64,000 nucleotides of DNA, taken from positions 12,982,051-13,046,050 of the forward strand of contig CM054135.1 of NCBI GenBank assembly GCA_028751875.1. The letters run 5' to 3'. Shown piece after piece: positions 1,854 to 55,300 of this stretch; positions within the stretch are counted from its first letter, which is position 1; every line of letters begins with the position of its first letter. Source of the DNA: Rapana venosa. Lineage: Eukaryota; Mollusca; Gastropoda; Neogastropoda; Muricidae. Under the pieces are notes generated by a model that worked only from the letters and a program-made list of their open reading frames with translations, had not been told where the DNA came from and searched no databases. A program made the translations under genes and the position numbers.

Positions 1854-4402
1854 GCAACAACCACAACAACAACAACAACACCAACACCAACACCATCACC
1901 ACCAACAACAGATGCAACAGCAGCAATAGCAGCAGCAGAAATAGAAGCACAGCAGCAACAGCATCATCATCAGCAGCAACAACAATAACAAAAACAACAA
2001 AACAACAACAACAGCTTACCAGGAATACCGGGTGTTGTGCTAGGTGTGGTTGTAGTCATGGTAGTGGAGGTAGTGGCTGAAACATTGTTTTACAGAATTT
2101 TTGAACAATTTCATTAAAAAGTAGTTTTGAAAATTAAATTAAACTAAATTAATTACTACCTATACAGATAATCTCCCGTTAAGCCAAACCAAGCCTCACC
2201 TATACAGATAATCTCCCAGAAATCCAAACCAAACCTACCTACCTATACAGATAACCTTCTCTAAAGCCAAACCAAGCCCTACCTGTATATATAATCTCTC
2301 GTAAATCCCCCCCTCCAAAATGCCTTTCCTATACGGATAATCTCCCACAAAGCCAACAAAGCCTTACCTATATAGATAACCTCCCGTTCATCCAAACCAA
2401 GCCTACTTACCTACCTATAGAGATAATCTCCCATAAAACCAAACCAAGCCTACCTACCTATACAGATAATCTCTGGTAAAACCAAACCAAACCAAACCTT
2501 ACCTATACAGATAATCTCCCCTAAAACCAAGCCTACCTACCTACCTATACAGATAATCTCTGGCAAAACCAAACCAAACCTTACCTATACAGATAATCTC
2601 TCGCAAAGCCAAACCAAGCCTACCTACCTATACAGATAATCTCTGGCAAGGCCAAACAAAACCTTACCTACCTATACAGATAATCTCTGGCAAAACCAAA
2701 CCAAGCCTTACCTACCTATACAGATAATCTCTGGTAAAACCAAACCAAACCTTACCTATACAGATAATCTCTCGCAAAACCAAACAAAACCTTCCTTTAC
2801 AGATAATCTCTCACAAAACCAAACAAAACCTTTCCTATACAGATAATCTCTGGCAAAACCAAACCAAACCAAACCTTACCTATACAGACAATCTCTGGCA
2901 AAACCAAACCAAACCTTACCTATACAGATAATCTCTGGCAAAACCAAACAAAACCTTACCTATACAGATAATCTCTGGCAAAACCAAACCACACCTTACC
3001 TACCTATACAGATAATCTCTCGCAAACCAAACCAAACCTTACCTTACCTATACAGATAATCTCTGGCAAAACCAAACAAAACCTTACCTATACAGATAAT
3101 CTCTCGCAAAGCCAAACCAAGCCTACCTACCTATACAGATAATCTCTGGCAAGGCCAAACAAAACCTTACCTACCTATACAGATAATCTCTGGCAAAACC
3201 AAACCAAGCCTTACCTACCTATACAGATAATCTCTGGTAAAACCAAACCAAACCTTACCTATACAGATAATCTCTCGCAAAACCAAACAAAACCTTCCCT
3301 TTACAGATAATCTCTCACAAAACCAAACAAAACCTTTCCTATACAGATAATCTCTGGCAAAACCAAACCAAACCAAACCTTACCTATACAGACAATCTCT
3401 GGCAAAACCAAACCAAACCTTACCTATACAGATAATCTCTGGCAAAACCAAACAAAACCTTACCTATACAGATAATCTCTGGCAAAACCAAACCACACCT
3501 TACCTACCTATACAGATAATCTCTCGCAAACCAAACCAAACCTTACCTTACCTATACAGATAATCTCTGGCAAAACCAAACAAAACCTTACCTATACAGA
3601 TAATCTCTGGCAAAACCAAACCAAACCTTACCTATACAGATAATCTCTCGCAAAGCCAAACCTTACCTACCTATACAGATGATCTCTGGCAAAACCAAAC
3701 CTTACCTACCTATACAGATAATCTCTCGCAAAACCAAACCTTACCTACCTATACAGATAATCTCCCATAAAACCAAACCTTACCTACCTATACAGATAAT
3801 CTCTCGCAAAACCAAACCTTACCTATACAGATAATCTCCCATAAAACCAAACCTTACCTACCTATACAGATAATCTCTGGCAAAACCAAACCTTACCTAC
3901 CTATACAGATAATCTCTCGCAAAACCAAACCTTACCTACCTATACAGATAATCTCCCATAAAACCACACCTTACCTACCTATACAGATAATCTCTCGCAA
4001 AGCCTCGGCAATCTCGAAGAGGGCGGAGAAGTCGGTGACGTTGAAGAGCGTGTCACGTGAGGTGGCGATGGCGTCCAGCTCCATGGCCAGCTTGTGCGTC
4101 TTCACGCCCACCCCCACCACCACCAGCACCACCCCGTCCGCTTTGGTGCGGGTGGCCTCGTCGATGGTGTCCTGCACGTTGTTCGACTCCCCGTCCGTGA
4201 TCACAAGCCCTGAAGCAGAAATCATCATCGTCATCGTCGTTGTCGTCGTCGTCATCATCAGCGTCGTCATCGTCATCATTGTCATCGTCGTTGTCGTTGT
4301 CGCCGTCGTCATCATCATCATCACGATGATGACCATCGTCATCGTCCTCCTCCTCATCTCTCTCTGTGTCTCTTTCTGACTCTGTCTCTCCATCTCTCTC
4401 TC

Positions 4403-4435
<33 letters not shown>

Positions 4436-5273
4436 GCACGCATGCACACATACACATTTATATATATATATATATACTTCACACTTTGTACAGATGAAAA
4501 TTTGATTATACAAAATGAAGCCAGTCTCTTAGTCTGTCTGCCAGTCCGTCTACCTGTCTGTCCGTTTGTCAGTCAGTCAGTCAGTCAGCCAGTCTGTCTG
4601 TCAGTCTGTCTATCTGTCTGTATGCCAGTCTTAAGGTCTGTCAGTCCGGCAAGGTGTCTGTCTATCTGCCTGTCCGCCAGTCAGTCAGTCAGTCAGTCAG
4701 TCTGTCAGTGTGTCAGTCAGCCAGTCATTCAGTCAGCCAGCCAGTCAGTCAGCCAGTCAGTCTGTCAGCCAGTCTGTCAGTGTGTCGGTCTGTCAGTCAG
4801 TCAGTCAGTCAGCCAATCAGTCTGTCAGTGTGTCAGTCAATCAGTCAGCCAGTCAGTCTGTAAGTCAGTCAGCCAGTCAGTCTGTCAGTGTGTCAGTCAA
4901 TCAGTCAGCCAGTCAGTCAATCAATCAGCCAGCCAGCCAGCCAGCCAGTCAGCCAGTCAGTCAGTCAGTCAGTATCGTTCTCTACCCGCTGTGTTCCCCA
5001 TCCCTGCAGCTACCTATGTGGGGCACCCTGTCTCTGCCCTGCTGGCGGAACATGGCCCTGAGCTCCCTCAGCCCCAGGGCGGTGTTGGTGGTCCCTATGG
5101 GCGGCTGGTTGAGGGTGGAGGCCTTGGCCTTCAGGGCGTTCTTGCCCAGGAAAGGCTTGATGGGCACCGTGTCTCCGATGTTGGAGCTGTACACGATGAT
5201 GCCCGCGTGGATGGCTTCCTGGTCAATCTGCCCATGGTTCAATCACTGGAGTGTTAATGTAGTCAGTGGCTGC

Positions 5274-5353
<80 letters not shown>

Positions 5354-7681
5354 AGTGTGTGAGTGTGTCTGCAGTGTGTGTGTGTGTCTGCAGTAATGTC
5401 ATGTCATCCTGCTAGATACATTGCCCAAGTGTTTTAAACGTATTATGTGTTTCGTCCAGGTCAGTCAGAAAGTCGGTTATTTTATGTGCATGCTTTTATT
5501 TGTGTCAAAATGCGTTTTGGTTTTGGTTTTCCTCACAGTGCATTGTCACGTGCGGGAGGGGGATGAGGGTGGTTGGGAGGGGGGGGGTGTGAATTTGGTA
5601 TGGGGCTTTGCCTGACCTCCATATTGAGAATTTTTTTTTTACAAGCCTGTTTCACAAATCATAAAATAAAATATGAAAAAGTGCCATCTCAAAATTTGTT
5701 TTTAAAGTCAAAATGTAAAAGAAAAACCGCTAAGGATAAACAACACAAAAATACCAGCAAGAAAATTATACCTAATGACAAACAAAAACACAACAAAAAC
5801 ACAACAATTCAAAGGACGCAGAGTAAAAAAACAAACAAACAAAAACAAAACATACACTCACTGACAACCATTTCAGAAACATCTTTTTATGCCCTTGTAC
5901 TTGACAAACACAACCGTTTCCAAAAGACAAGGGCATCCCAAACAACCACTACTACAAAACACAAAGAAGACCACAGATTTTCTATCACAGCCGGATAGCA
6001 AGACTCCAGATTCCCACTTGTCACCACACACCATCAATGACAGGCCGCAACAAACAGCTTCATACCTCGACAGCACTGAGCCAGGTTTGCCTGTAATAGT
6101 AGTAGTATCAGCAGAGCGTTCCATCCCTGAGCCAGCCACTCACCTCCATGCTGTTGATGAGAGTGGTGACGAATAGTCTGCCCCTGGCCCAGTCCGCGTC
6201 GGAGATGCTGAATGAGCCGTCCAGCAGGAAGACCACGTCTCCGGGCCGGGGACAGGATATGGCTGTGCGTGCATACACAGACACACAGACAGACACACAG
6301 ACAGACAGACAGACAATGTGCTATTGCTGGTACCACAACGTCTCCAGGCCGGGGACAGGATATGGCTGTGCGTGCATACACAGACACACAGACACACAGA
6401 CAACGTGGTACTGCTGGTGTGTGTTGAAAGGTACAGGTGTCCCATAGCCTATGTGGTCCTAGGGGAGTAAGGCATCAGAGACCTCAACTTCTCTAGGGGC
6501 CAGCATATTGAGGGCGGCGCCCATCTCCTCTCCCACGCTGCTTTGCCTTCCATGACCCTAGAGAGGGCAGGTACCCATTTACAGTTGGGTGAACTGGGGA
6601 AATGTACTAAAAGCCAAGGCGTGCAAATGGTCACCTATTCAAGTGGTAACCACGCTCGATGCTTCTTAACCTTGGCTGGGGGAAAAGCAAGTGCTCTGAC
6701 CACTGAGCTTTCCCGCCCCAAGTGTGTGCATTAACAGATAGATAATAATAGTAGTTCCGGTGTTTACAGCCAACAAATTCTTCCTGGTTAAATGCTCCAA
6801 CAGCAGCTACCATTGTCTGTCATATGGGCAAAAATGCCTTGCTATGCCGGACAAGGCAGGCCCAGGGCATCCGACACAATACACAAGCATTAAAAGACGA
6901 CCGTTCTTTTGGGATGTTTGTACGAGCATCTGCTTGAATTTGTCCGATGTTATTATTCCGCCACTTGCGAAGGAAATGTGCCTAAGGGCACAGCTTTCTG
7001 AAATGTTTTATAATTTCTTTTGCATGTCACCTTGATGTAATGAATGCCTTTCTTGCCATCTGCGTTCCATTATCCTATTTGCTCATTACCTTTCAAACTG
7101 TTGTTTACATTTTGATTGCTACTTTTCTTGGATTTACATGTATTTTATTAGTTTTGAAAGTCTTCACGTGCAAAAAAGACATACTGGATCTCTTCAGTCT
7201 TTTTACATTTTCATACTTTTCAAAATATACTTTATTCATTTATTGTTTTAAATTTTCATACATGTTAATCCACTGCCTATTTCAAGGCAAATTTTGCACC
7301 CTCATGTTTGAATACAGCATATCACTATTATACTCTAAGACCTCAGAAGTGGCCCAGTCCAAATGAGCTCCGGTAAAATACAACTGTAGGGACTGGTGGG
7401 GTCACTATGACAGTCTGCAGACTTCGCCATCCAGACCGGACTAAAAATTAAGCATAGTCAGAAGAAGAAGAAGAAGAAGGAGAGGAGGAGGAGGAGAAGG
7501 AAGGAAGGAAGGAAGGAAGGAAGGAAGGAAGGAAGGAAGGAAGGAAGAAGAAGAAGAAACCCAGCATATTTTCTGAACCTAAATATGAAACCAAAAACAC
7601 TCGCACACTCACACACACACATACAGCCTCACACACACACACTCACTCACACACACACACACACACTCACACACACACACA

Positions 7682-8724: not shown

Positions 8725-8928
8725 TCCCACCTTCACAGATGAGACTCCTCAGTTCCTCCACCACGCCCTGCAGCTCGGTGAAGTCTCGAACCGTGAACAG
8801 GCGGTTCTGCGACGGGTAGTAGTCCGACTTGGCCACCTCCTGAAGCTCGTCGATGAAGGTTTCGTTGCCCACCCCGAGGGCAATCATCGTGATGCCGTCC
8901 AGCTGTAGTCATAACGATAATAATAATG

Positions 8929-9183: not shown

Positions 9184-11125
9184 ATACACTTTGACAGGGT
9201 GATGGGATTTTGGCTGTTTTAGGCAGGGATAGATTTGAGGTGAAACAAGAGGGGAAACATCATCACAGTCATATTCCTCGACATACTCTTCATCATGTTC
9301 TTCATCATACTTATCATTACGGTTATCATCACATTCATCATCACATTCATCATCCCAATCACCATTACATTCATCATCACATTCACCGTCACATTTATCA
9401 TCACATTCTTCATTACATTTACCACCACAATTTTCATCATATTGATCATCCTTTTCGTCATCATATTCATCATCACATTCATCACCACATTCTTCATCAC
9501 ATCCACCATAATATTCATCATCACATTCACCATCAGTGTTGTCGCTGTAGTCATCAGCACCGGCATCATCAAAGTCATAATTATCGTCATCGTTTGTGGA
9601 TGTTCTATTCCAATGCTGCACTTAAGGTGTGTAATAATTTGCAATGAGAATAATGATGCTTGTTCTTGTCTGATGGCTTCTAAAGCTAAACCCAAATAAC
9701 TTGTGAAAGGGAAACAATATGGACCGCAGGGCATACATTTATCATTAATCAGACTATATATTTTTTCTATATTTTATTTTTACCTTTCCATTACAAAATG
9801 TCTAAATGCAGTGACTTTTGAAGGGATGATTTAAACTGATGTCCCTTGTCAAATGTGTTTCCCAAAAGAAATCCACATGTATAGTTGGAAGACATGGATG
9901 TCTTCCAGCTGCCAAATGTAAAGACCTTTCATTGCTGTTGAGCACACTATAAGCTTGTAGCTTGCTGTTGTTGCTCTGTTGTACGTGTGTATATCTAAGT
10001 ATATGTAAATTTTGTTTAAACCAGTCAGACTGTGTTATGCCAATATTATGCAAGACGTTTGAAATGCGATAAAACACGGTTTCAAAAAAAGGCTAACTAA
10101 AGAATAAAGGGTCGGGATAGCTCAGTGGTCGGAACACTCGCTTTCCCCAAGCCAGGTTAAGCAGCATCGAGCGTGGTTACCATCTGGATGTGTGACCGTT
10201 AGAGCGCCTTGGCTTCAGTACAGTTCCCCCAGTTCACCCAGCTGTAAATGGGTACCTGCCTCTTTAGGGTCAGGGAAGGTAAAGCAGCGAGGGAGAGGAG
10301 ATGGGCGCCACCCTCAATATACTGGCCCCTAGAGAAGTTGAGGTCTCTGATGCCTTACTACCCTACGAGCTTATAGGTTATGGGATACCTTTACCTTTCA
10401 TTAAAGTAAAAAGGTGGATGATGGTTCATGGATGATGTTTTTCAGTCTGGGTCGCCGTGGCTCACCTGTCTGGCGTAGACAGCCTCCTGGATGGTGGCGG
10501 TGGTGTTGTCCGACCTGCCGTCAGTGATCACCAAGGCGATTTTCTTGGCGTTGTCGCGTGCCTGGTTTTGCATCATCACGCGCATGCGCGCAATGGCGCG
10601 TGCCGTGTCTGTGCCTGTCCCAGGAAGAGAGGTGGGGTGAGATTTTGTGTTTTTCTTTTTCTTTTTAATTAGAAATGTTTTGTGAATGAAAGAAACCGTC
10701 GCGTAAGTCATTGTAGTATAATGAAGAACAGTTCCTTTTGATAATGAAGGTCCACTCTAATTGTCATAACTTTATGTTTGCTTGTAAAACAGAAAAAAGT
10801 GTCACATCATGTCAGGAGGTGAGCATGTCTGAGAATTGGAATATGTGCATGCACAAATATGTTCATGTGGGAGAGGGGTATACGCATGTGTGTGCACATC
10901 CTTATACATAATTCATGACTGAATGATATATGCAAATGCAAATACAATGCAAGTGTGTGTGCATTATTCTCTATGCTCAAAGGGTTACATTTCTTGGTTC
11001 TGGATTCTTGTGAGTGCGTGTAAGGGGGATAACTCGTTAAAAATAGTTTTAAGCCTTCTGTGAATGTTACGTTACATTAAGAAATGATTCACATGTTCAA
11101 TCACCCGTCATGATGCAGTGGTCAG

Positions 11126-16515: not shown

Positions 16516-18672
16516 CGTGGCTATGGATGGCCTATGGTATGGACTGTGACGTACATGACAAAACCGACTCTTCATACTCGAAGTCCTCCGCTGTTAAACG
16601 GCCGCTGCACAGCTCCCGGCTGTCGGGTCCCACTGCCAGCACACACGCCCCATGGCTTCAACACCCGCAGCTTCCTCTCCAACCCTCAATGTTCATACCT
16701 CCCTTACGTGAAGCGCTGAAGCCTTGCAATACTACGCAGAGTACGCTTTCAACCTCGTCATGCTGATACCTTCATGTCTATATTCTGACCCAGCGTTGAG
16801 AAACAAGACGCAGGCCTACTTTTTACTGTATGTTTTGAGTAATGGATAAGTTCATGTAAAGAACGTACGATGTACATACATAGATATCATCGGAAAGCTG
16901 GTGAGGTGTCAGTGGCTCAGCCAAGACAAGACACGTGGCAAAAGTCAATACAAGAGCTGAGGAGGATACAGGCGGAGCGGACAGGACAGGACAGGACAGG
17001 ACAGGACATGACCAGCGTATGTACAGGAAAGGACAGGTCTGACTGAGTGTGCTGAACAGGTTAGTATGAAGCAGTACGGAAAACCCCAGACAGCATTAGT
17101 GGAACACAGCACACACCGAACGCTTTGTCGCTTCAACGTTAGGTTAAATGCTGATATAAACATGTTTAAAGTAGGTATTTTTCTGTATGAAACTGTGGAT
17201 TGGCATGCAGCTCTTCAAAATTTATCTTAATCATGAATGCACTGGCAACTTTTTAAAAGAAATTGTCAGATTAATGCAGGCTGCTTGTTGATTATGTCCA
17301 TGAAAGAACATTCTCAGCGTTCTTTTTTCAGGTAATACCCATATCAAGACATTCATTATCATCTGCTCACACTACACTGGGTATGACACAGACTTTCCTT
17401 TGCAGGAAACATGACATAGGTGCCTTGGAGATGAAGGTCTCCCCATCCCGCAAGATTTATCCCCTTGATCAAAGTTTATCAGTGATTTTAAACATCGGTG
17501 GACATCGTCCGTCCACTTACCATCTTCCGTGAATCTTTCAATCCCAAAGCCTTTGATATGAATTCCCTACAGTCGTGAACATGTGCTGGAAACAAACTGA
17601 GGTCACCATGAGACTAGCTAGAGCAAGATGGGCGACCGAATAAGAGAAAGGTTTCTGTTATTGCTTGGCAATCCATAGCAAGGAAGAAGATACAATGACG
17701 ATACTATGGAAATGCACTGGCGTTGAGACTACTCCAGGCCGATATTCTATGTCAAATATTCCAGCGTCATCTCTAGCTAAGGTTTATGATTATGCATTAC
17801 AGTGTCTTATAATACAGACCCTTTTCGGACTGACAGGGGGCAAAGCTGACTGTTAACTCTGCTTTTTCAACATAAACGTTAGAAAAAAACCCTTTGGGAT
17901 TCAAAGATATGTATGCAGAATATAAAAAACTAAATTAATGTCCTCAAGGATAACTGTCAGACTTCTCCCATCCACGATGCTAATTTTATATATTTTAGAA
18001 ATACACATATATATAACAATTTATCCATTTACCACCCACGCTCAATCACACCACCACGAAGCCACTCAAAAGGTGAAGAAAGAAGAAGAAAGGACAAGAG
18101 GAAGACCATGAAGCACAACAACAAGAAGAACACCAAGAGAGGAAGCCATCACCCCCCAGGACCCAGACAGACGGACGGACAGACAGACAGGACACGGCTC
18201 CGCCACCTACCCTGCCTGGTCTGCACCAGCGCGGGCAGCTGCGCCTTCAGCTGGACCCGCGTCTTGAAGGGCTGGAGGTCCACCACCTGGCCGATCTCCG
18301 TGCTGTAGACGATCATCCCCACGTTGATGGCGTGCTCCTCCACCGCCAGGGCGTCCACGAGGATGCCCACGAACTCCTTCTCCTGCTGCCACTCGCCAGG
18401 CTTGATGGAGGAGGAGGCGTCCAGCAGGAACACCACGTCCGCCGGCACGTCGCAGCGAACCATGGAGGCTGCTGCTGGCGCTGTTGATGGTGGTGGTGGT
18501 GGTGGTGTTGGTGTTGGTGGTGGTGTTGGTGGTGGTGTTGGTGGTGTTGGTGGTGGTGTTGGTGGTGGTGGTGGTGTGGTGGTGGTGTTGGTGGTGGTGG
18601 TGGTGTGGTGGTGTTGGTGTTGGGGGTGAGGGTGTTAGTGGATGTAGTACAGTGGGGTACGACACCCATGCA

Positions 18673-21264: not shown

Positions 21265-21455
21265 TGCGTGCGTGTGTGTGTGTATGTGCGTGCGTGTGTG
21301 TGTGTGCGCGTGCGTGTGCGAGTATGTGTGTGTGTGTGCGCGCGCGCGTGCGTGTGTGTGTATGTATGTATGTGTGTGTGTTTACCTTGTCCCTCACTGC
21401 CCCGAATGATCGCCAGAGTCCAGAGCAGGGTCAGCCACAGGGATCGGGATTCCAT
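353..21455 (-). CDS. Pif/BMSP-like secreted VWA-VWA-chitin-binding protein, multi-exon, 3' part beyond window
   Basis: Eight coding exons on the minus strand join in phase (lengths 70, 258, 149, 172, 119, 214, 231, 195 nt) into an uninterrupted 469-residue N-terminal part. Order: signal peptide (about residues 1-21), VWA domain 1 (about 30-215), VWA domain 2 (about 220-403), cysteine-rich chitin-binding type-2 domain (about 405-469). Both VWA domains keep the metal-ion-dependent adhesion site: DASSS at 40-44, T111 and D141 in the first; DGSFS at 231-235, T302 or T303 and D333 in the second. The last exon ends in phase 1, so coding continues left of position 1. This architecture is known from molluscan shell-matrix proteins Pif and BMSP, which bind chitin and help organise calcium carbonate. 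The function here is inferred from architecture only. Alternatives are another VWA/peritrophin extracellular-matrix protein. Family assignment is good for the domains and moderate for the Pif/BMSP name. Confidence 0.85.
690..1095. repeat. Compound CA/CGCA microsatellite
   Basis: Long runs of alternating CA interrupted by CGCA and ACAA blocks (690-870, 923-963, 1035-1092). Open frames across it are composition artefacts. Confidence 0.9.
1215..1446 (+). mobile_element. SINE family A, 5'-truncated copy
   Basis: It matches the 3' two thirds of the tRNA/5S-like SINE: ccttggcttcag, aatgggtacctgccctcttt, gggaaggtaaagcagcgagg, and ggttatgggacacctttacc at the end. The tRNA-like and 5S-like head is missing. 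Confidence 0.8.
1622..1795 (-). mobile_element. SINE family B fragment
   Basis: It shares ggataatggaataagca, tgtgtatgcagttttgtaa and cacaatggcctactctttcg with seven other copies in the window. The A-rich ATAA tail of the sense strand places its 3' end at about 1622. Confidence 0.8.
1797..2010. repeat. CAT / CAG / CAA triplet array
   Basis: Successive blocks of cat, cag, caa and cac triplets, apparently grown from the head end of the adjacent SINE B fragment. Poly-His/Gln frames here are not coding. Confidence 0.85.
2155..3978. repeat. About 45-copy minisatellite built from a gene 1 exon end and its splice donor
   Basis: Tandem 33-48 bp units with core acctatacagataatctc followed by (t/c)(g/c)gcaaaaccaaacc. 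On the minus strand each unit reads gagattatctgtatag then gtaagg, which is the last bases of the VWA2 exon (3979-4209) followed by its 5' splice site. The first 26 bases of the exon end (3979-4004) occur unchanged in some units, for example near 3630. Units furthest from the exon (2155-2400) are the most diverged. A 504 bp higher-order duplication lies within the array. Confidence 0.92.
3979..4209 (-). CDS. Gene 1 exon: VWA domain 2, C-terminal part
   Basis: 231-nt exon, phase 1-1. It starts after acceptor gcttcag with [11 protein letters not shown], which supplies the MIDAS aspartate (D333), and ends ALREIICI before donor gtaggtaag. The chosen donor keeps the phase needed by the ChtBD2 exon; a second GT four bases further on (gtaagg) would shift the frame. 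Read-through past the donor meets TAA within three codons. The last 26 nt of this exon are the core of the neighbouring 1.8 kb tandem array. The upstream intron ends in a long GAT/GAC repeat just before the acceptor. Confidence 0.9.
4213..4490. repeat. GAT/GAC array and CA/TA microsatellites
   Basis: On the minus strand a 150 bp run of gat/gac triplets ends about 10 bases before the acceptor of the exon at 4209. CA (4400-4450) and TA (4458-4475) repeats follow. Confidence 0.85.
4520..4978. repeat. CAGT/CAGC tetranucleotide array
   Basis: 450 bp of cagt, cagc and ctgt tetranucleotides filling most of the intron between the 5014 and 4209 exons. The Ser/Gln/Val-rich frame it opens on the plus strand is an artefact. 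Confidence 0.9.
5014..5227 (-). CDS. Gene 1 exon: VWA domain 2, middle part
   Basis: 214-nt exon, phase 0 to 1, between acceptor catgggcag and donor gtagct. It encodes [19 protein letters not shown] through the MIDAS threonine motif GTTNTA to GRDRVPHIG. It reads directly from the previous exon ending INSME and into GLVITDG of the next. The downstream 0.8 kb intron is almost entirely simple repeats. Confidence 0.9.
5277..5400. repeat. GT microsatellite in gene 1 intron
   Basis: About 50 GT units with rare GC and GA interruptions, beginning some 50 bp upstream of the acceptor at 5228. Confidence 0.9.
5401..6143. other. Gene 1 intron, AT-rich, no feature seen
   Basis: Mostly AT-rich single-copy-looking sequence, with A-rich runs at about 5690-5880 on the plus strand. 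I see no exon, RNA gene or repeat family here. Confidence 0.5.
6144..6262 (-). CDS. Gene 1 exon: VWA domain 2, N-terminal part
   Basis: 119-nt exon, phase 1 to 0, from acceptor gcacgcacag to donor gtgagt. It encodes [20 protein letters not shown], containing the MIDAS DxSxS motif of the second VWA domain. The acceptor plus the first 25 or so coding bases are duplicated 103 bp upstream (in the direction of transcription), described separately. Confidence 0.88.
6235..6400. repeat. Direct duplication of VWA2 acceptor and exon start
   Basis: Two 60 bp copies (6235-6297 and 6338-6400, offset 103 bp) share acgtctcc, gccggggacaggatatggc, tgtgcgtgcatacacagac. The left copy is the real exon start and acceptor; the right copy is intronic. 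Both end in CAGA/CACA repeats. Confidence 0.9.
6437..6722 (-). mobile_element. SINE family A, near full-length copy
   Basis: Minus-oriented copy: reading the minus strand it has ggaaagctcagtggtcagag, the 5S-like segment (gcatcgagcgtggttaccac), and the shared body ending cataggctatggg. It lies in the intron between VWA1 and VWA2 exons. Confidence 0.85.
6723..8159. other. Gene 1 intron with microsatellites
   Basis: AT-rich sequence to about 7440 with no recognised element, then GAA/GGAA (7456-7560), CA (7600-7775), GGT/GTG (7820-7862) and CA (8066-8155) repeats. A hydrophobic plus-strand frame at 7040-7366 looks like AT-rich composition, not a gene. Confidence 0.6.
8160..8402 (+). mobile_element. 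SINE family B copy
   Basis: Sense on the plus strand: ccttcggatgagtctataaa, a B-box-like gtgttcgaacgc, gtaggccattgtgtgccggt, and the tail gaaataaaagaataaataaa. The tRNA-like head is absent, replaced on the left by a CA array. Confidence 0.85.
8403..8729. repeat. CA / poly-C compound repeat at splice donor
   Basis: CA runs, short C homopolymers and a 55 bp CA run (8667-8721) end nine bases from the exon at 8731. On the sense strand the intron begins gtgggatc followed by (TG)n. Confidence 0.88.
8731..8902 (-). CDS. Gene 1 exon: VWA domain 1, C-terminal part
   Basis: 172-nt exon, phase 0 to 1, from acceptor gactacag to donor gtggga. It encodes [20 protein letters not shown] and ends ELRSLICE, the usual end of a VWA fold. 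The donor is followed within a few bases by a long GT/TG microsatellite. Confidence 0.9.
8907..9180. repeat. AAT, AAG and CA repeats with a short interspersed fragment
   Basis: (AAT)n then (AAG)n at 8912-8990, then a fragment beginning tggaatttatttagggct that resembles those at 14030 and 48940, then a CA array (9118-9177). All lie in the gene 1 intron. Confidence 0.75.
9240..9580. repeat. Imperfect ATC-rich (catcatcacatt) array
   Basis: About 25 degenerate copies of 12 bp catcatcacatt. On the minus strand it opens a long Asp/Glu/Cys-rich frame (DDEC-type repeats). See the finding on possible exonisation; by default it is a repeat. Confidence 0.8.
10109..10398 (+). mobile_element. SINE family A, full-length copy
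   Basis: It starts gtcgggatagctcagtggtc (tRNA A-box-like), then gttaagcagcatcgagcgtg and atctggatgtgtgaccg (5S rRNA-like), then the common body, ending ggttatgggatacctttacc. It lies about 60 bp from the gene 1 exon at 10466. Confidence 0.88.
10466..10614 (-). CDS. Gene 1 exon: VWA domain 1, middle part
   Basis: 149-nt exon, phase 1 to 0, from acceptor ctgggacag to donor gtgagc. It encodes [11 protein letters not shown] (MIDAS threonine) and [15 protein letters not shown] (MIDAS aspartate), ending EAVYARQ. Joins in frame to exons on both sides. Confidence 0.9.
11836..12262. repeat. GACA / GA compound array
   Basis: Over 400 bp of gaca, gaga and gagaca blocks (plus strand), open in several frames on both strands purely by composition. 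Confidence 0.9.
12515..12655. repeat. CA/CG purine-pyrimidine alternating repeat
   Basis: Alternating CA and CG dinucleotides, including a 28 bp CG run (12545-12570), a sequence type prone to Z-DNA. Confidence 0.85.
12985..13345. repeat. 20 bp minisatellite tacatcatgactatgatata
   Basis: About 17 copies of the 20 bp unit, very regular at 13065-13220 and degenerating on both sides. Confidence 0.92.
13690..13800. repeat. CA/CG microsatellite
   Basis: C-run followed by CA and CGCG blocks in the gene 1 intron. Confidence 0.85.
13900..14840. repeat. 13 bp / 39 bp hierarchical minisatellite
   Basis: The basic unit is about 13 bp (gtgtaacatgtcg and variants). At 14415-14775 three diverged 13-mers form a 39 bp unit repeated about eight times. 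A SINE B fragment (about 14020-14250) interrupts it. Because 39 is a multiple of three, long His/Thr-rich frames stay open but are not genes. Confidence 0.9.
14020..14252 (-). mobile_element. SINE family B fragment inside minisatellite
   Basis: It shares tttgtcatctgttcccaccg, cacaatggcctactctttcg and gtgtgcgcaagatgttctgc with other copies, preceded by atggaatttatatagcgctg. The minisatellite resumes on both sides, so insertion came after array birth. Confidence 0.8.
14958..15285. repeat. TC, CA and GT microsatellites
   Basis: (TC)n 14958-15035, CGCT/CACG run to 15075, CA 15196-15239, then GT 15248-15283, forming a CA/GT inverted pair able to fold on itself. Confidence 0.88.
15540..16145. repeat. 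Tandem duplication of a GA-flanked 300 bp block
   Basis: Two diverged copies (about 15540-15850 and 15850-16135) share the order (GA)n, attctttgt/attcttcgt, agaataa, cacacagttcct, gtatgggat, agctatga/ggctatga, taacttttccat, cctttggaag/ctttggaag, cttgtcctt, (GA)n. Confidence 0.85.
18211..18468 (-). CDS. Gene 1 exon: VWA domain 1, N-terminal part
   Basis: 258-nt exon, phase 1-1, from acceptor cagcagcag to donor gtaggt. It encodes [20 protein letters not shown] and then [20 protein letters not shown], standard first half of a VWA domain. The sequence is strikingly GC-rich against its AT-rich surroundings. The acceptor lies beside a TGG/CCA triplet array with no clear pyrimidine tract of its own. 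Confidence 0.9.
18478..18640. repeat. TGG/TGT triplet array at splice acceptor
   Basis: On the sense strand it is an (ACC/ACA)n tract ending about 20 nt before the acceptor of the first VWA exon. Confidence 0.9.
18673..18832. repeat. CA microsatellite
   Basis: CA array with ATAC and GCAC interruptions. Confidence 0.9.
19030..19210 (+). mobile_element. Interspersed repeat family C copy
   Basis: It shares ctagagcccccaggttcacc, accatgaaggtagctgcatt and ccgact with copies at 28.7, 43.0, 51.3 and 60.6 kb. Longest copy, extending through cgcctagcactgacatgag. Probably a short non-autonomous element. Confidence 0.7.
19215..19325 (-). mobile_element. Short LINE 3'-end fragment
   Basis: Plus-strand tatagtcttgtagaccttgg, gcaaccagcttcctccattc and ctctgctttacg parallel the 3' end of the LINE at 52.0 kb. 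It looks like a heavily 5'-truncated copy. Confidence 0.55.
19490..19855 (-). mobile_element. SINE family B, full-length copy with tRNA-like head
   Basis: On the minus strand it starts with an A-box-like tgctaaagtggtcaga and a B-box-like gggttcgattgcc, then the body common to all family B copies, ending in ataaaagaatataaa. This copy shows the family is tRNA-derived. Confidence 0.82.
19975..20190 (+). mobile_element. Interspersed repeat family D copy
   Basis: It shares gaaacaaatgcagttgaaaa, tggcactgctcttgtggcga, gagagcagcccgaatttcac and gcagagaaatcttc with the copy directly downstream and with the one at 27.4 kb. It ends in taaaatataataaa. Confidence 0.75.
20255..20540 (+). mobile_element. 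Interspersed repeat family D copy with CAATA tail
   Basis: Same body as the copy just upstream (gctgttcttgtggcgacaca, gagagtaacccgaatttcgt), ending in a 130 bp tail of gcaatacaatgcaat pentamers. Confidence 0.78.
20838..20900. other. Perfect 24 bp inverted repeat (hairpin) with 15-nt loop
   Basis: Arms 20838-20861 and 20877-20900 are perfect reverse complements (start caattctgctattagag on the left; end ctctaatagcagaattg on the right). Size is like a miRNA precursor or a tiny palindromic MITE. It lies in gene 1 between exons 2 and 3. Confidence 0.9.
20985..21380. repeat. GT/GC array at gene 1 donor
   Basis: 400 bp of GT with GCGT and GTAT blocks. On the sense strand it starts four bases into the intron (gtaaacacaca), directly after the signal-peptide exon. 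Confidence 0.92.
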
Positions 21456-52300: not shown

Positions 52301-55300
52301 CTTAAGTTTTAAACCGCTTTTCACAAATCGTTAGAAGGTTCTCATAGGGCCAATGGTTTCTGGATTCTGTTATGCACGCTTTCGTTGCTTATGGGGGTCT
52401 TTGTAGGAAAATGCCAAGGATCTCCGAAAGCATCTCATCTCCACTGCCAGTACTCTTCTCCCCAAAATCTGCAGTCAGGGTCCATGATTCACAGCATACA
52501 GAAATATAGATATGACAAGGAGCGCATTAGTCTGATCTTGGAGATAAGTGATATTCTTATCTCTCCAATGGTGTTTAGTTTTGACAAAGCTGTTATTGTC
52601 TGTGCAGTCCTGCATACTACTTCTGGCTTGGATCCGGGTGGGATACAATGGCTCCCGGGTACTTGAAGCTTTAAAACTTTTTCCAGCTTCGGGTCATTAA
52701 CCCTGATATCAGTGCTAATCCCCGTTGGTGTTATTAGTCATCATTTGGTCTTCTCTGCACTGATTTCCATCCGTATGTTTTGGAGGCCTTATCCAAGTGT
52801 TCTGTTAGGCTGGCAAGCTCTTTTTCTGATCCTGCTATTCCATCAATGCCCATCTGCGAAGCGGAGGTTTGTGATCGTTCTGCCACCAATGCTGACTGAC
52901 CTTCATGATGTTCCAGTGCATCAGCCATGATTCCCCTCAAGGAAGTTTGTGAAAAGGTGGGTGAGAGTAGACAAGCCCTGCCTACTCCAACTTTTTGTTC
53001 GAAACCATTCTCCAATGTTTTGTTGTAGTACACTGCACTGGGGGCCTCGCTGTACAGCTGTTTGATGACTCTGATCAGGTTTGCATTGATGCTGTACAAG
53101 TTCATGGTTGCCCACAAAGCTGCATGCCACACCCTGTCAAATGCCTTCTTAAAATCGATAAATACGTGGTATGGGTCTTGTTGATGTTGAAGGTACCGCT
53201 ACATAGTATTCTGAGGTTGAATATCTGTTCTGTTTGTGCTGCGTCCTGCTCTGAAACCTGCTTGTTCCTCAGAAATTTGATGGTCTCTGCTTTGGCTTCA
53301 GTCTTTCAATATTATCTGCAGCAGACCTTGCTTGGGTGACATATGGGGCTGATTGTGCGGTAATTAGGCATTTTTTGTAGATTTCCTTTCTTGGGGAGGG
53401 TGATGATGAGCGACTGCGTCCATGGTTTTGGCCATTTTCCTGTCTGCCAATCTTGTTGCAGATTCTTAGTAGGCGCTAAATCATGGCTTCCCCTCCACTT
53501 GGACCACTCAGCGGGAATGTTGTCAGCCCCTGCTGACTTTCCCCTTTTTCAGCGATCTGACTGCTGTTTCCACTTCTTCTGGGAGGATGGGGTGACTGTC
53601 TGTGTCTTTGCTTTCGGGTACATTAAGGACTTCTGGATCTCCTGGGGTTCAATAGTTAACAGGCGGAGCAGTATTCTGTCCATCTGTTCAGAATATCCTG
53701 GTCGTCAGTGAGACACTTCCCTTTTTTGTCTTGGATTGTTAAACCTTTTCTCTGTTTCGTGCTAGTCAGGTCTTTCACCAGCTGATATGTTTTCTTGCTA
53801 TTGCTTTTCTTGATATTCTCTTCAATGTCTTGGCACTGTTCACCGATCCATTTCTCTTTTGCCTCCGTCATGGACTTCCTGATTCTTTTGTTGACTGCCC
53901 TATATTGTTCTGCTCTTTCTTTGTTTCATTTTTCTTTTTTTTTCAACTCTCTACGCTTTCGCATAGTTGAGGATGTTAGGTGGACCCATGGTTTTTTTAC
54001 TGGGCGGCGTTTGCCAAGAACTCGTTTGCTGTTTCAGTCACTGCTGTATTGAAACTATTTGTCAGTGTATCATTCTGAGTCTATCACAGTGAGTGCTGCA
54101 AACTTTCCACATCCTTGCTTGAAAAATTTCTAATACCTCTGGGTCCTTCAGCTTCTCGAGGTCAAATTTGATCCTGATGTTGTTCCGCTTGTGGATTTTC
54201 TTTAGACGTAGTCGAAAGTCATCATCACAAGATCATGAATCACTCCCTATTGTCTGCTCCTGAAAACTTCGTGCTGATGCATGTTAACGCTAGAACTGAA
54301 ACCGCTTTTCACCAGATGTAATCTATTTGGTTGTGTGTTTCTCCATTTTGGGGGATGCCATGTCCATTTTCTGGATTTCTTTTGTGGGCCCAAATGTATT
54401 CACTAGCTGGAGTGGTTGTTACTGGCAAACTCCAGGTCTCAAGCCTCTTTCATTTGATTGGTTATTACAATGTGGGCCCCCAAACGCCCTCCCAGTCTTT
54501 CCATGCATCTTCTCCTACCTTGCGTTCCAGTCGCCTTGCACAAAAGAGGATGTCTTTCTTGGTGTTTGATTCAGAACCTCTTGTAGCTGTCATAAAATTC
54601 TTCTACGGGTTCATCCCGTGCAGTCTGATGTAGGGGCGTATGCCTGTACTACAGTTATGTTAAAGGGGTTCTCTCAGGCGGATGGTAATAATCTGCTGGA
54701 CACAGGCTGACAGCTCAAGACGGTGTTCACGGTGTCTTTGTGAACAGAAAACCCCACGCCGTGTTCATGTTTATCCTGTTTTTCCACGTAGTATAATTTG
54801 TGGTCTTCCTGTGTTGGGTTTTTCCCATGTTTTTCCACCTGACTTCGCAGAGCCCAAGGATGTGCCAATGATATCTGGACATCTCATGTGTCAGTTCTTC
54901 CACTTTGCCCGCATCTCTTAGTGTTTTGTACATTCCATGTGCCAATGATGGTGTTGTGTCTGGCACGAATTTTGCTGCGTTTTACATCAGTAGCATACTT
55001 TCGACATCTGTCCTAAGCAACAAAGGCGCGTCCTTGTAACCCGGCGACGACCCCCGTAAGAGATTCTGGCTTCTTTGTCATGGGTGTAAAAAAAACTTGG
55101 CAATCAACCTGCGGAGCCCATCCCTTTTCCAGGTCGGATTTTTGGTTGGGTTTTCTCCCCACATGGCAGGGGAACTGGGTTACATGGTTCCAGTACAGAG
55201 GAGTCTCTGACCTGACCTGCAAAACAAAAAAACAGGAAATCATCGATAAAGCAGCTCATAATAAACTAATAAACTTTAAACCCTCCAAGAACAAAACTAC

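Follow-up and report, generated by a model that had tools for sequence, protein, structure and literature searches.

How is one correct 5' splice site picked among dozens of look-alikes? This question is raised by a minus-strand gene of the gastropod Rapana venosa, one intron of which consists largely of repeated copies of the end of the preceding exon, together with the intron bases that follow it. To our knowledge, the choice of a 5' splice site among near-equals has mostly been studied with few competing sites. The present locus amounts to a good natural test of such choice: it offers 45 tandem exon-end copies, a working protein being predicted from just one of them, and the genome contains two more genes for comparison. 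The locus further illustrates how the growth of a repeat can remodel a gene where an intron is most sensitive. The gene lies in a stretch of 64,000 nt (C2:12982051-13046050, hereafter the window) from a genome assembly of 2.28 Gb in 2,004 contigs.

The host gene and the end of its VWA2 domain

The gene is made up of nine minus-strand exons, the phases of which are consistent throughout: a signal-peptide exon (21386-21455; the signal peptide was judged by eye), three exons of a first VWA domain, VWA1 (18211-18480, 10466-10614 and 8731-8902), three exons of a second, VWA2 (6144-6262, 5014-5227 and 3979-4209), a 57-nt exon next after VWA2 that encodes a Thr-rich linker matched by a linker in Pomacea (2020-2076), and an exon encoding a chitin-binding CBM_14 domain (353-547; Pfam PF01607, E 3.6e-6). 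Apart from CBM_14, the Pfam search of the gene product returned the two VWA domains (E 3.9e-60), and the top homologue among 22 is the Pomacea canaliculata "cartilage matrix protein-like isoform X2" (61% identity over 95%). VWA domains combined with a chitin-binding domain are also found in the Pif/BMSP shell matrix proteins (PMC11291548), and the host gene has the corresponding features (signal peptide by eye, VWA domains and CBM_14). The same paper describes a BMSP from a gastropod in which two VWA domains stand in tandem, and the host gene, with its two predicted tandem VWA domains, resembles it; this is a resemblance in domain content and bears on the host gene rather than on the array.

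Genome searches returned 62 matches, among which those beyond this gene are 20-44% identical, and none of them represents a close paralogue suitable for a comparison of the intron. Two clusters of VWA domains, at C1:59.65-59.76 Mb and C2:52.17-52.21 Mb, account for 36 matches with 31-35% identity to VWA2, mostly whole domains in a single open frame. To the left of the window, minus-strand frames (L009, L010) have a laminin-G-like look, with W-T-V-x-L-P-D-G repeats discerned by eye, and a minus-strand open frame at 52734-53198 of the window resembles, also by eye, a partial reverse transcriptase of a non-LTR retrotransposon.

The third VWA2 exon (3979-4209, minus strand) has phase 1 on both sides, AG/GT borders, a Pomacea homologue and Pfam support, and its end and donor read ATCTGTATAG/GTAGGTAAGG, the slash here and below marking a donor border. 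The first intron bases, GTAGGT, form the true donor; GTAAGG, a further donor that overlaps it, lies 4 nt downstream (3969-3978, minus strand). The third VWA1 exon (8731-8902, minus strand) serves as an internal control: it ends in ATCTGTGAAG/GTGGGA with the same codon and phase, and carries no array. The codons are ATC TGT ATA G/GT at the end of VWA2 and ATC TGT GAA G/GT at the end of VWA1, and the corresponding peptides are LREIIC in VWA2, LRSLIC in VWA1 and LRDQIC in Pomacea, the homologue of which is continuous over the VWA2 junction (LRDQICEVIVS...LCRECLE, with the protein stretch LRDQICEVIVSTIPPPTVSTTPSIPALCRECLE aligned there). A first-pass annotation of the window had placed the end of the VWA2 exon at 3979, and the phases, the sister domain VWA1 and the Pomacea homologue all agree with this placement. 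In that annotation the units were read as the exon end followed by GTAAGG; the real junction is ATAG/GTAG/GTAAGG, so that the frame-keeping donor lies 4 nt ahead of this hexamer. At the level of sequence, the exon end is fixed independently by the nine-exon phases, the VWA1 codon and the Pomacea homologue, so that the array was copied from the exon and not the reverse.

A minisatellite made of an exon end and an intron start

Tandem Repeats Finder (TRF) delimits the array at 2157-4001, with a period of 40, 44.7 copies and 82% matches. By parsing, 45 exon-end copies are obtained (a regular-expression count of 46 included one split copy), namely the real exon end, which is copy 1 and comprises the last 26 nt of the exon (3979-4004), and 44 intronic copies (2160-3978), all on the minus strand. 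These numbers agree with the first-pass description of a minisatellite of about 45 units derived from the VWA2 exon end. The array occupies 1,819 of the 1,902 nt of the intron, the remainder being an AT-rich segment of 83 nt (2077-2159, minus strand) with the acceptor TTTCAG. The units are 35-47 nt long, mostly 39, 40 or 44-45 nt, and comprise up to 26 nt derived from the exon and 9-21 nt derived from the intron; tandem units in the range of about 10-100 bp, many copies and variant units are what defines a minisatellite. Each unit thus carries the exon end and the start of the intron, and the direction of copying is from exon to intron. The proposal that the junction itself had been copied into the array therefore stands, with the source exon fixed by phase, by VWA1 and by Pomacea.

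The repeat is specific to this junction. The last 20 nt of the VWA2 exon have 43 matches in the downstream intron at up to 4 mismatches, and under the same settings the remaining 8 exon ends of the gene have 0 matches in their own introns. A 17-nt core searched with up to 3 mismatches throughout the window has 45 minus-strand matches, all inside the array, and 0 on the plus strand. The exact 22-mer core has 14 matches in the 2.28-Gb genome, every one of them in this array, so that, at the level of the exact 22-mer, the core is not the dispersed satellite that the first-pass annotation had named as a refuting outcome.

Copies 10, 23 and 35 are identical to the exon over 26 nt. The mean number of differences from the exon, out of 26 nt, is 2.1 in copies 2-23, 2.0 in copies 24-36 and 4.4 in copies 37-45; thus, the copies most distant from the exon are the most diverged from it. 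The Spearman correlation of differences along the array is 0.36 over the 44 copies and 0.43 over a non-redundant set of 32, from which copies 24-35 were removed, the p values of about 0.015 being indicative only because the copies are not independent. The removed copies constitute the second block of an internal 12-unit duplication (503/504 bp; left 2542-3104, right ~3045-3608, minus strand), the two copies of which differ by one substitution and one indel over ~563 bp. Variability across 2160-3978 is far lower in the 16-nt core GAGATTATCTGTATAG, which derives from the exon, than in the 4 nt preceding it; the units were cut at the end of the core, which aids alignment of the core and does not account for the contrast with the adjacent 4 nt. 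The sense strand of the array is rich in G (583 G vs 124 C) and contains 33 two-tetrad G-quadruplex-like motifs, vs 0 on the opposite strand, a composition that could favour instability of the array.

Donor-like sites and the case for tolerated decoys

Most copies still hold a donor that matches U1. GTAAGG directly follows the copy in 17 of the 44 intronic copies and stands behind an extra GTAG in another 13, that is, in 30 of 44 altogether, which falls short of the "nearly every unit" of the first-pass annotation. When the units are scored one by one, as had been suggested there, a donor-like site with a score above 3 is present in 38 of the 44 intronic copies. Candidate donors, defined by a score above 3 and a distance of at most 12 nt from the copy end, number 65 and fall into 39 of the 45 copies, the score being built from nucleotide frequencies. 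This score ranks the true donor (4.64) below the common decoy GTAAGG, including the one at the +4 site (6.17). Pairing to U1 yields the opposite order, with -11.8 kcal/mol for the true donor TAG/GTAGGT and -9.9 kcal/mol for the common decoy TAG/GTAAGG, the nine donors of the gene spanning -4.5 to -11.9 kcal/mol. Sites at or below -9.9 kcal/mol number 58 in the 1.83 kb of the array, the true donor included, vs 14 in the remaining 62.2 kb of the same strand. The claim that the intron carries many tandem donors is accordingly upheld in the form of dozens of putative, donor-like sites.

When each of the 65 sites is joined to the next two exons, the frame remains open only from the first. In the test frame, 90 codons precede the stop reached from the +4 site, and 79 precede the single TAA shared by the other 63 sites. 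Reading past the true donor yields GGT AGG TAA, the stop within three codons that had been anticipated. The predicted decoy-spliced products lack the CBM_14 exon (353-547). Coding or exonised repeats were also considered and ruled out, given the stops reached from all non-first sites and the absence of coding constraint: the distinct changes in the copies comprise 5 synonymous and 18 nonsynonymous ones, compared with 17 and 55 possible. Nor are the donor GTs preferentially kept. Of the 32 non-redundant intronic copies, 3 have lost the GT that follows the copy, and the 16 dinucleotides ahead of it show 0 to 4 losses each, 14 of the 16 being lost less often than the GT.

Genome-wide, perfect CAGGTAAGT triplets are rarer than their reversed control (231 vs 801 matches), but for the less strict AGGTAAG triplets the motif exceeds its control (12,830 vs 7,170), so that there is no consistent enrichment of tandem donors; these counts include overlapping matches and are dominated by a few large arrays.

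The array probably arose as a side effect of a growing repeat. The reading that we favour, with a probability of roughly 0.6, is that a tandem duplication crossing the junction was amplified into a minisatellite, the copies of which are tolerated decoys without a selected role. A duplication spanning the exon/intron border would have been amplified by slippage or unequal exchange, and the spliceosome would normally take the 5'-most donor, since, by exon definition, it is this donor that completes the real exon. The remaining copies would be tolerated and mostly silent; if one of them were occasionally used, the message would end at GGT-AGG-TAA shortly behind VWA2 and would probably be discarded. 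The length of the array would then determine that of the intron and, at most, the quantity of mis-spliced RNA. This passive origin is favoured by the consistent phases of the nine-exon model, the matching end of VWA1, the Pomacea homologue, the single open frame among the 65 sites, the distal divergence, the lack of coding constraint, the failure to keep the GT, the abundance of minisatellites, the parallel in AP5Z1 and the duplication of an acceptor in the host gene, the last three of which are described below. Two points speak against it: the low variability of the 16-nt core is not obviously explained by simple drift, and the frequency score, in contrast to U1 pairing, puts the decoy GTAAGG above the true donor. 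If the decoys are truly stronger, they could be tolerated only where the first site is actively preferred.

An unlikely alternative holds that the array regulates output, the donors competing for U1 and the copy number setting the ratio of the full-length protein to a secreted protein of VWA1 and VWA2 that lacks the chitin-binding region. It draws on the donor-like sites in 38 of the 44 intronic copies, on the 58 strongly pairing sites and on the single TAA shared by 63 of the 64 non-first sites, the +4 site stopping shortly after; it is at odds with the loss of the donor GT in 3 of 32 copies, more than for 14 of the 16 nearby dinucleotides. Messages with such premature stops are, moreover, generally expected to be degraded. 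The first-pass annotation had proposed that array length sets a truncated fraction: a truncated product is indeed predicted from every non-first site, but the tuning by length is unsupported, as are the buffering and weakening of splicing that it had also envisaged, given the GT losses and the contradictory triplet counts. It is quite unlikely that the copy number is partly an artefact of assembly; the 12-unit block, the two copies of which are separated over ~563 bp by a single substitution and a single indel, would fit such an error, but the distal copies have diverged from one another and therefore cannot stem from one block. Decidedly unlikely is a role of the donors without splicing, in which they hold U1 on the intron and thereby block premature 3' ends or keep unspliced RNA nuclear: the density of U1-pairing sites in the array is high, and a 5' splice-site motif kept in RNA inhibits export, according to PMC4380460, but the intron is short, with 1,819 of its 1,902 nt belonging to the array itself. 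Finally, an invasion of the exon by an unrelated intronic satellite, of which the exon end would be a piece, appears very improbable and largely refuted, as the 26-nt identity of the exon end to copies 10, 23 and 35 is outweighed by the conserved VWA end that it encodes (LREIIC, next to LRDQIC in Pomacea and LRSLIC in VWA1) and by the absence of the exact 22-mer core elsewhere in the genome. In sum, since proteins bound to the exon can direct the choice between competing donors, as DOK7 shows, and retained donor motifs inhibit export, the array may have a functional role, which is so far unsupported.

Other exon-end copies in the same genome and the closest known systems

Nine other arrays were examined, namely one in L042, two in L043, one in L044 and one each in L076-L080; L042-L044 are three of at least about seven AGGTAAG-triplet stretches and L076-L080 are five of at least 19 perfect-triplet arrays. 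Two of the nine begin as exon-end copies, in AP5Z1 and in a C-type-lectin-like gene; no exon was seen by eye at the start of five of the nine, and in L077 and L080 the sequence examined stops short of the array edge. The AP5Z1 array (L044:4556-5216, minus strand, in C1:9221000-9230900) starts at the exon end TGCTACACCTTGCAG/GTAATACTG, on the strand opposite the scanned motif, and consists of the end of exon 3 with its donor and 12 extra copies in the next intron; the resulting 13 exon-end copies stand at the start of this 636-nt intron and share an exon part of ~15 nt. Four exons of this gene join in phase and encode 140 aa, for which Pfam returns AP5Z1 (PF25153, E 2.3e-8). Among the 12 intronic copies, 8 have GTCAT, a weaker donor, replacing GTAAT, and 4 keep GTAATA. 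In the C-type-lectin-like gene (L076, C8:28691950-28692350, minus strand), read by eye, the exon end GTCCACACTCCTCTGGACATGTCCTACCTGGCAG/GTAAGG is followed by units of ~30 bp ending in CCACAG/GTAAGT, and at least one unit retains ~34 nt of exon, GTCCACATTCCTCTGGACATGGCCCACCTTTGCAG/GTAAGT. The encoded piece is C-type-lectin-like by its best PDB hits (E-values 0.0008 and 0.0011); of the 53 sequences found at E up to 1 most, not all, have a C-type-lectin fold by name, and a Pfam search with the piece gave no match.

In the host gene itself, a single tandem duplication (6144-6402, minus strand) comprises the acceptor of exon 6144-6262, the first of VWA2, together with ~33 nt of exon; the duplicate spans 68 nt at 94% identity and forms a decoy 3' splice site ~98 nt upstream.

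Seven stretches, three of them chosen for holding arrays, together have 119,280 non-N bases, of which 26 minisatellite arrays make up 10.0%; the window alone contains 13 arrays (8.7% of its bases), that of the VWA2 intron included. Minisatellites being this common in these stretches, it is unsurprising that junctions are swept into arrays here, and the capture of exon ends may recur in this minisatellite-rich genome. A bolder conjecture, which we consider unlikely, is that such capture is recurrent here and leaves tens of tandem donors, that array length shifts the correctly spliced share, and that splice fidelity is in consequence a fast-evolving, length-polymorphic trait.

Among the papers listed in the literature searches, none was recognised as describing a junction-derived donor array. 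In 1995, Turri, Cuin and Porter reportedly described a minisatellite that gives multiple splice donors in the human gene IFI6/G1P3 (6-16). The snail units, mostly 39-45 bp and with as much as 26 nt taken from the exon, differ from the 12-bp IFI6 unit, the length of which keeps the isoforms in frame; only 1 of the 65 snail sites is open. In IFI6, two downstream repeat units act as donors, giving rise to three mRNA species, according to PMC4526556; the IFI6 minisatellite is a close precedent of the snail array, which likewise adjoins an exon end, includes its donor and has units carrying donor-consensus sites, but the IFI6 units are used as donors in mRNA and the snail donors are predicted from sequence. 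Intron 4 of DOK7 has two adjacent donors 11 nt apart, one of which leads to a truncated protein, the choice depending on SRSF1 and on U1 binding, according to PMC5585400; the presence of adjacent donors is common to both cases, the first two snail donors being 4 nt apart, but DOK7 has two sites and the snail array 65 candidate sites in tandem. In a potato RdRp gene, an intron is reported to have been gained by tandem duplication (PMC4974935). There, as in the snail, tandem duplication provides new copies of splice sites, with the difference that a new intron arose in potato, whereas the duplicated border of the snail gene fills an existing intron.
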